A stretch of DNA of 64,000 nucleotides from Bacteroidota bacterium (GTDB lineage: Bacteria; Bacteroidota; Bacteroidia; Bacteroidales; DTGW01). Position numbers and translations under genes: made by a program. The notes beneath the pieces are model-generated. The model was given only the letters and a program-made list of their open reading frames with translations. It was not told the origin of the DNA and did no database searches. Positions 1 to 61,770 of the stretch are shown here, piece after piece (position 1 is the first letter of the stretch; every line of letters starts with the position of its first letter). The stretch lies in contig JAKPGM010000057.1 of assembly GCA_029550865.1 (NCBI GenBank), forward strand, positions 1 to 64,000. The letters run 5' to 3'.

Positions 1-112
1 TCACAAACGAGTATGAAAATATTTATCAGTTTCGTACTTACCTATGTGTAGAAGGCTCATCACATGCGAGTTCCATCCGACCGCTATAAAAAATTAAAAA
101 TATTTTCGGATG
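1..112. repeat. Dispersed hairpin-rich repeat, copy A (left part cut by window edge)
   Basis: This stretch matches copy C near 61.3 kb closely: both contain GAGTATGAAAATATTTATC, then CGTACTT, ATGTGTAG, and ACATGCGAGTTCCATCC, an AT-rich loop and TTCGGATG. The right end forms a 7-bp stem, CATCCGA with TCGGATG, around an AT-rich loop of about 20 bases. The final CGGATG runs directly into copy B, so A and B are in tandem. No ORF is present. The nature of the element (REP-like, MITE-like or other) is inference. Confidence 0.75.
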
Positions 113-250
113 AAACGAGCATGTATAGCAGTATTCACAAACGAGAATGAAAATAATTTTTCATACCTGCTTGATTTTAGAGCACAAAACATATTACATG
201 CGAGTTCCATCCGGCCTTTTAAGAAAAATTTTTAAAATTATTTTCGGATG
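111..250. repeat. Dispersed hairpin-rich repeat, copy B
   Basis: This is a full-length unit of about 140 bp in tandem with copy A. It starts ATGAAACGAGCATGTATAGC, as copy C does, and ends ACATGCGAGTTCCATCCGG, AT-rich loop, TTCGGATG. The left ATGAAACGAGCATGT and the right ACATGCGAGTTCCAT are imperfect inverted repeats (12 of 15 positions by eye). The middle diverges from copies A and C. It ends 29 bases before the stop codon of the convergent-facing DUF262 gene and could form its 3' RNA hairpin. Confidence 0.75.
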
Positions 251-22431: not shown

Positions 22432-23198
22432 AGTATGTCATGATTTTTTTTTAAAAATAGTAAAGTTGTTGGTCATTTGCTAATTAAAAATTTCTGTTTT
22501 GAAACATGCATTATTGTTAGTAACCCAAAAATGCTTAATAATAGTATTGCTTACCTGCCAGTGAACATTTACATAGTTAAATTTTATGCGAGTTACATAA
22601 TCCCTCATTACAAACCATAATATTGTTTCAGAAGATAACGAACCCCTCATCCCTGCTGCAGGCACCCTCAACTTACAGCGTATAGAGGTAGAGAAAAGTG
22701 GAATACACTATCACCCAAAGATCACCCCTACGAGTTTCTATGAACTATACATTTTTTACCAACTCCCTTCAATCAGACAAAAGCAGTATTACTGCGAATT
22801 TATTCCACCTATTATATTTAAGGTAATAAAAAATTATCATAGCCCAAGAACAAACAAGTTTCCCGAAATACGCTATTTTTGGTCTTTATTTTATGAACAG
22901 CTAATATACTGATTACTAATAATTAATGCTTTTTTGTTAGATAAACATTGAATTGATGGTTTAAACGAATAATATGTAAAATACAATATATTATTGAATT
23001 TGAAACAGTTATGAAACAAAAAATACATTATTAATTTGATATCCAAAGAATTTTATAGAAACTATTTATCAATTTTAACGTAAAAAATACTAAATTTCGC
23101 ACGTTTTATTAATATTGGTCTATTTATACCAAATAACGGCAATGATTTGAGTAGTAGTAAAGGTGCGGTAAGAACTAAAATATCGAAAATAAGCTGAT
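22432..23198. other. Divergent AT-rich intergenic region
   Basis: This 767-base gap separates the amino-sugar operon (minus) from the giant surface-protein gene (plus). It is strongly AT-rich except for 22630-22735, which holds CCCCTCATCCCTGCTGCAGG and a CACCCCTACGAG segment resembling the hairpin near 14346. I see no tRNA, no riboswitch and no convincing exact TAnnTTTG box. The 63- and 61-residue ORFs here lack coding character. Confidence 0.6.
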
Positions 23199-44828: not shown

Positions 44829-44902
44829 GGCTCCGTAGCTTAACTGAATAGAGCATCTGACTACGGATCAGAAGGTTGGGGGTTTGAGTCCCTCCGGAGT
44901 CA
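44829..44902 (+). tRNA. tRNA-Arg (anticodon ACG)
   Basis: The cloverleaf folds by eye. The acceptor stem is GGCTCCG with CGGAGTC (one G-T pair), the anticodon stem TCTGA/TCAGA flanks the loop CTACGGA with anticodon ACG, and the T arm is GGGGG-TTTGAGT-CCCTC. The length is 74 bases with discriminator A. CCA is not encoded. ACG is expected to be edited to ICG and read CGU, CGC and CGA. Confidence 0.95.
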
Positions 44903-49288: not shown

Positions 49289-49295
49289 CAAAACA

Positions 49296-49368
49296 AAAGT
49301 GGAAAGATTTGTGTCTGATTGCAACCACGGTAAAAAATGCTAAAATGACAGCGAAGCTGCATTTTTTT
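49296..49368 (+). promoter_or_regulatory. Candidate SAM-responsive leader (SAM-II/V-like core) with overlapping terminator hairpin
   Basis: Between the promoter and metK the leader reads CTGATT-GCAACC, then AATGCTAAAATG. The order CTGATT...AACC...GCTAAA resembles, from memory, the conserved core of SAM-II/SAM-V riboswitches. It is followed at once by TG(A)CAGC-GAA-GCTGCA and seven T residues (49346-49368), a terminator-like hairpin. AGTGG (49298-49302) could pair with either CCAC (49325-49328) or CCACT (49371-49375), which would allow two alternative folds. I could not complete a full consensus P1 stem by eye, so this is a candidate only. Confidence 0.33.
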
Positions 49369-61290: not shown

Positions 61291-61426
61291 ATGAAACGAG
61301 CATGTATAGCAGTATACACAAATGAGTATGAAAATATTTATCCTTTACGTACTTGCCATGTGTAGGAAACTCATAACATGCGAGTTCCATCCAACCTTTA
61401 CAAAAAATTAATAATATCTTCGGATG
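61291..61426. repeat. Dispersed hairpin-rich repeat, copy C
   Basis: This is a 136-bp unit with the same ends and order as copies A and B 61 kb away: ATGAAACGAGCATGTATAGC, then GAGTATGAAAATATTTATC, CGTACTT, ATGTGTAG, ACATGCGAGTTCCATCC, an AT-rich loop and TTCGGATG. Its right-hand stem is reduced to CATCC/GGATG. It lies between tyrA and glnN and carries no ORF. Confidence 0.8.
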
Positions 61427-61770
61427 TATAAAAGTTTTAGCCAAAATACCAACATTTGTTAAAATTGTTTTCCTTCTTTATTTATATAATAATAGTCTTC
61501 TTCGTTATAAAATCAAAGTAATAAATATCTGGATAAAAATTCAAATATCTCGATGCCTGCCTTAAATTATTCCTTCGAAAAAGTATTTATTATTTTTAGT
61601 ACTATAATAAATTATAAGGTGTTTTATTAGAAATACACCAATTTTATATAAACACTCATTAATATTTTATATTTTTTATAATTATTACAATTTTTTATTA
61701 CATATTATCATTATATTAAAATAATTTTGATAAAATTTTCTATAAAATATAATTTTTTAAAAACTTTTAT

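Follow-up and report, generated by a model that had tools for sequence, protein, structure and literature searches.

The window analysed here, the first 64 kb (64,000 nucleotides) of an 89.7-kb contig from a Bacteroidales-like genome of 2.5 Mb (84% complete), opens with tandem repeat units lying beside a defence gene. The question raised by this locus is whether such units are a mobile or structured non-coding element, as the original prediction had it, and, if so, where they insert, what becomes of the genes they enter and which enzyme could move them.

Repeat units in the window

Copies A and B are real head-to-tail tandem units with a period of about 138 nt, as indicated by the sequence, the alignment and the covariance model. 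Copy A (positions 1-112, plus strand; nhmmer 78 bits, model positions 29-139) has a middle of subtype 2 and lacks its 5' part, starting only at model position 29, because the contig itself, and not only the window, begins within it. Copy B (110-253 with covariance model R1, 82.4 bits, E 7e-12) consists of the element proper at 115-252 on the plus strand, running from ACGAGC to CGGATGAA around a subtype-1 middle, preceded by an ATGAA junction (110-114, plus strand) that is common to both copies, being at once the right end of A and the target position of B if the insertion point is placed according to the empty sites described below. Copy C, which is solitary and of subtype 2, lies on the plus strand at 61291-61429 (covariance model, 77.1 bits), its right end being slightly decayed (CGGATGTA). 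The segment ACATGCGAGTTCCATCCG occurs four times in the window when up to 3 mismatches are allowed, a number reached in none of 100 shuffles. A weak profile match at 22500-22630 (21.5 bits) was rejected as a further copy, as the covariance model did not confirm it. The window also carries a tRNA (44829-44902) and a SAM-II riboswitch (49293-49353).

The defence gene, of the GmrSD/HEC-06 type (DUF262+DUF1524, from Pfam and PADLOC), lies outside the element at 280-1968 on the minus strand, and its stop codon is 29 nt from copy B, exactly as first described. It is a convergent neighbour, but at one of many sites, and the association is incidental since the neighbours of other copies are ordinary genes.

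A widespread family of units

The repeat extends well beyond the three copies of the window: BLAST with copy B finds at least 62 places in the source genome (G000), an iterated profile about 82 matches in the parts of it that were searched, and the covariance model adds further places. Of its full copies, which number 49, 16 are at least 97% identical to a neighbour copy, and the spread is therefore recent. Across the order, the family was detected in 111 of 393 sampled genomes (covariance model, E <= 1e-4), with 58 copies in G263, 38 in G360, 27 in G221 and 10 in G202. A scan of named genomes with a 20-base core returned at least 92 stretches among the matches listed, the hosts among these being Anaerophaga, Marinilabilia, Thermophagus, Prolixibacteraceae, other Bacteroidota MAGs and one Elizabethkingia. 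Plasmid and phage collections gave no match to an Anaerophaga copy; one viral contig carries a copy. No Rfam family reaches its gathering threshold for the element, no insertion sequence with these ends was seen and no description of it turned up in the papers searched; the element, widespread in the order, is apparently undescribed.

Units range from about 95 to 145 bp, those of relatives being shorter (95-105 nt) because their middle is shorter, and two main middle subtypes are apparent in the alignment of source-genome copies. An additional and more diverged unit type of about 127 nt (ATGAAACCTTCATGATTGTGCTCAAGCACAAACAC...ATTTTATTCGGATGAAAC, also ATGAAACCTTCATGATTGTGCTCAAGCACAAACAC...CGGATGAAAC) often lies directly downstream of copies, in tandem at the same ATGAA junction and with a different left end, as on the right flank of copies on contigs C10, C19, C21, C25, C35 and C46 of the source genome. 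The ACAAACAC motif is present in this type too, as is an end-to-end pairing (GAATAAAAT/ATTTTATTC) of the P2 type discussed below. Some Anaerophaga and Thermophagus units conserve only about 43 nt on the left and about 18-40 nt on the right around unrelated contents; the large Anaerophaga units L129, L119 and L164 carry a CATTCTGAGCGGAGCGAAGAATCT repeat between the conserved ends. Head-to-tail joining at ATGAA is found in all unit types. Many contigs of the source assembly end within copies (C76:1, C76:89709, C5:1, C42:1 and 8069, C47:1, C61:1), the far end of the window's own contig (89,709) among them.

Empty sites and the insertion target

To locate empty sites, the joined flanks of copies from Marinilabilia MSL42 were compared with strain JCM 21150. 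Three loci (L138, L145 and L093) align to empty sites reading TTTTTA-ATGAA-ATACTT, GTTAA-TTGAA-TAAAGAGG (occupied by a dimer in the other strain) and GA-ACGAA-ATATTTATT (with a less clean alignment of the right flank). A fourth occupied/empty pair, at a start codon, comes from Anaerophaga strains (L154). Such sites are few, two strain pairs contributing three and one respectively, and all agree. In the occupied Marinilabilia sites, the left side keeps the target bases (ATGAA, TTGAA or ACGAA) and the right side is always ATGAA; the cut therefore falls directly after GAA, and the right-hand ATGAA is the element's own. In all four pairs the element, ACGAGC...CGGATGAA, lies directly 3' of (T)GAA, and target-site duplications, suggested as a check of mobility, are absent in that nothing beyond GAA is duplicated. 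The left flank over all copies reads T90-98 G91-96 A A, the flanks outside the left and right ATGAA are free, and one ATGAA separates tandem units.

We are very confident that these copies represent a real and widespread mobile element, structured and non-autonomous, whose target is exactly ATGAA and whose right end rebuilds start codons. The initial view, which took the repeat for something mobile or for structured non-coding DNA and not for chance, is borne out by the copy number, the precise empty sites, the covariation presented next and the lack of an Rfam match; none of the outcomes named beforehand as refuting it was observed.

Fold and covariation

Two helices covary in an alignment (A1) of 47 diverse copies: the right-end hairpin with the terminal ATG, and an end-to-end pseudoknot pairing. 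The former, P3 (CATNNG/CNNATG), corresponds in copy B to CATCCG at 208-213 and CGGATG, containing the terminal ATG, at 245-250 (plus strand), and has 15 cells changed on both sides as against 2.8 in shuffles (0/500). The latter, P2, pairs the last bases of the conserved left block with those immediately preceding the terminal CNNATG, its variants including GTATAAAAT/ATTTTATAC, GAACAAAAT/ATTTTGTTC and, in copy B, GAAAATAAT/ATTATTTTC (149-157 and 237-245, plus strand); it is 82.6% paired over the 47 copies, with 4 of 6 pairs changed on both sides. The covariation of P2 and P3 exceeds that of all 500 shuffles and of all slid controls. P2 crosses the other helices, which makes the fold a pseudoknot or kissing loop.

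The right-end stem had been correctly pointed out from the window, as had the internal repeat AAACGAG(N)ATG. The inverted repeats placed at the termini fare differently: the imperfect inverted segments (P1) exist, but they are not terminal, the true right end lying about 39 nt past the "right inverted repeat". In copy B, the 5' arm of P1 covers the unit junction, CGGATGAA followed by ACGAGCATGT (107-124, plus strand), and is complementary to the 3' arm, an internal guide-like segment ACATGCGAGTTCCATCCG at 196-213 (plus strand), with one A.C and tandem G.A mismatches. P1 hardly varies: almost every copy has the same A.C mismatch, and the G.A opposition is found in 47/47, so that covariation speaks neither for nor against this helix. 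The 3' strand of P1, GCGAGTTCCATCCG, complements the junction of CGGATGAA with ACGAGC and hence each end separately. A left subterminal hairpin is visible by eye in the alignments (pairs uncounted), and copy B folds better than shuffled sequences, both as RNA (z -3.5) and as DNA (z -3.3).

Insertion at start codons

Among the 182 right ends that are not in tandem, 77 have a terminal ATG that is also the first codon of an open reading frame of at least 90 aa (78 with a cut-off of at least 80 aa, 73 with at least 150 aa, the lengths being bimodal), and the proteins opening there resemble real N-termini, many with signal peptides. In Anaerophaga DSM 12881, for instance, the element lies at the start of a 948-aa gene, the orthologue of which in strain Valhall (AATCAAATGAAACC) is without it. 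The coding sequence is kept, with the covarying hairpin now providing the start codon. The old start opens an upstream frame that usually stops before the new start or overlaps it, and the peptide of which is not conserved; a few relatives have this frame open and in phase with the gene, which yields apparent N-terminal extensions. A protein-coding element was rejected, the frame from the left ATG being blocked or shifted in most copies and both open and in-frame in only 6 of 61 start-site copies. At L088, L085, L086 and L080, the element and the downstream gene form one open frame, MKRAC/MNRAC...ASSIRP...VR-MK.

A strong preference for start codons was also rejected: 42% use against 23% for all tolerated ATGAA sites shrinks to 39% against 29% (39/101 vs 95/328, p = 0.085) under the proper control of ATGAAA sites, the motif actually used. 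Insertions at start codons are mostly explained by this ATGAAA target motif together with the loss of within-gene insertions, the sober reading being that the motif is a very common gene start here.

Likeness to known elements and the search for an enzyme

The insertion chemistry looks like that of the IS200/IS605 elements and their PATE/MITE derivatives. Both insert 3' of a short fixed sequence that is kept on the left with no duplication (as in the four pairs above), carry subterminal hairpins at both ends (here P3 by covariation and the left one by eye), and have tandem junctions and an internal segment that can base-pair with the sites of cleavage. The element differs in its target, which coincides with Met-Lys start codons, and in the covarying pseudoknot that joins its left and right ends; to our knowledge, such a linking of the two ends is no known IS200/IS605 feature. 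Membership in this group fails on the enzyme, as no tnpA or tnpB copy with the element's ends was seen and Y1 was undetected in some hosts.

No copies of the element ends lie beside the Y1 genes of the source genome and five named hosts, and no parent element, with tnpA (Y1) enclosed by these ends, was found in those genomes or among the neighbour genes of copies, where no transposase recurs, only ordinary families. Y1_Tnp has no match in three of 24 element-rich genomes. A profile made from local Y1 proteins gave nothing in G263 (58 copies), nothing credible in G360 (38 copies) and, in G067, no more than a 51-aa remnant. The copies in Y1-less hosts may be relics, a divergent enzyme may have been missed, or, in G360 (89% complete), the gene may fall in an assembly gap. 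Some PF01797 (Y1_Tnp) matches lie within open frames longer than 1000 codons (G099:C198, G100:C335, G101:C10, G183, G046), possible fusions of Y1 domains into large proteins. In a search for Y2 (IS91/Helitron-type) enzymes the controls themselves gave no match. Copies show no clear strand bias with replication, the one apparent bias being confounded by gene strand, and the left flank of a copy is not significantly predicted by that copy's guide trinucleotide (p = 0.065).

REP and REPIN sequences of RAYT (TnpA-REP) are likewise short, structured, present in high copy number and presumably moved in trans. The element is 3-5 times longer, is arranged head to tail whereas REPINs are inverted pairs, has no GTAG/GTGG tetranucleotide at a hairpin foot in the family alignments, and its copies do not flank a RAYT gene, the RAYT-like gene on G000:C65 having its own GGTAG arrays. 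That gene (L091:2000-2896) is followed by a long GGTAGTCCCGTAGGGACGAC array, a separate REP family in the same genome. The nearest literature lead is Y1 subclass 2.6, a Bacteroidetes group whose flanking "atypical secondary structures" have copies at other places in the genome (PMC6006769). No copies lie within 1.5 kb of the subclass-2.6-like genes found, except for one degenerate copy 1.1 kb away, and no gene of this type was seen in the source genome.

Alternative explanations

The modular tandem arrays with differing middles, the imperfect hairpin that spans the unit junction in the alignments with the variable region in its loop, and the hosts in which Y1 was undetected would all suit a tyrosine recombinase acting on a folded attC-like site, circles with the junction of CGGATGAA and ACGAGC recombining with ATGAA sites to give head-to-tail arrays with variable middles in the style of integron cassettes. 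An attC site is also an imperfect folded site with a variable terminal part, in head-to-tail arrays of modular contents. Integron R boxes read RYYYAAC (R'') and GTTRRRY (R'), however, and the conserved arms of the element, GTTCCAT and ATGAAAC, do not match this consensus; the exchange point, after GAA (L145), is not the integron position, and the targets are dispersed. We consider this recombinase unlikely. About as unlikely is a view of the copies as now mainly stationary cis-acting RNAs, AUG-sequestering 5' leaders that spread long ago and whose fold is kept for regulation. The start codon held in a covarying hairpin, the copies upstream of intact housekeeping open reading frames (miaA-, purA- and aroA-like, named by eye) and two orthologous gene pairs carrying the element in different MAGs (L101/L134 and L139/L162) speak for it; the empty sites in sister strains, the near-identical copies and the more than half of all copies without an open reading frame at their own ATG speak against it.

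The presence of GAA on both flanks could also suggest a classical MITE, derived from a DDE insertion sequence that duplicates a fixed 3 bp, GAA. This is quite improbable, as the ends proper, ACGAGC.. and ..CGGAT, do not form inverted repeats with each other, the target is a strict GAA rather than a duplication of variable sequence, the internal fold covaries and no insertion sequence with these ends was seen. Least probable of all is a SINE-like retroelement spreading through target-primed reverse transcription: the RNA-like pseudoknot and the 3' end matching the target would fit it, but reverse transcriptase (PF00078) was undetected in 7 of 11 element-bearing genomes, including the source genome, the single-contig G202 and Thermophagus, which disfavours it.

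A model for movement

We favour a non-autonomous mobile element that would be mobilised as a folded single strand, much as IS200/IS605 elements are, with a transposase supplied in trans, and give this explanation as a whole a probability of about 0.5; single-strand movement, taken on its own, is tentative, with even odds at best. The left subterminal hairpin and the covarying P3 hairpin would mark the element ends, P2 would bring them together, the internal GCGAGTTCCATCCG would pair with the junction of right and left ends and with either end, and the transposase would cut. As the empty sites show, the (A)TGAA of the target remains on the left and the right-hand ATGAA comes from the element; with a start codon (ATG-AA) as target, the right end supplies a new one and the old one begins a usually short upstream reading frame. 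Retention of the target on the left, guide pairing and hairpins follow the published logic of IS608 (PMC5934647). At start codons, the P3 hairpin would hold the AUG and probably tune translation. It is doubtful that this amounts to a new kind of mobile element, in which the mover would belong to a class not yet linked to transposition, target and right end would together spell a Met-Lys start, and the element, placed in live genes as their 5' leader, would act as a transposable device for translational control by rebuilding the start codon within a covarying hairpin.

Implications

The repeat breaks assemblies, both ends of the window's contig falling in copies, and in element-bearing genomes translation of the element may have given annotated proteins spurious N-terminal extensions (MKRAC...ASSIRP...VRMK). 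Where it enters at gene starts, including those of apparently essential genes, the coding sequence stays intact and the 5' leader is replaced. Two questions are now directly testable: which enzyme moves the element, and whether translation is controlled by the hairpin that encloses the rebuilt AUG.
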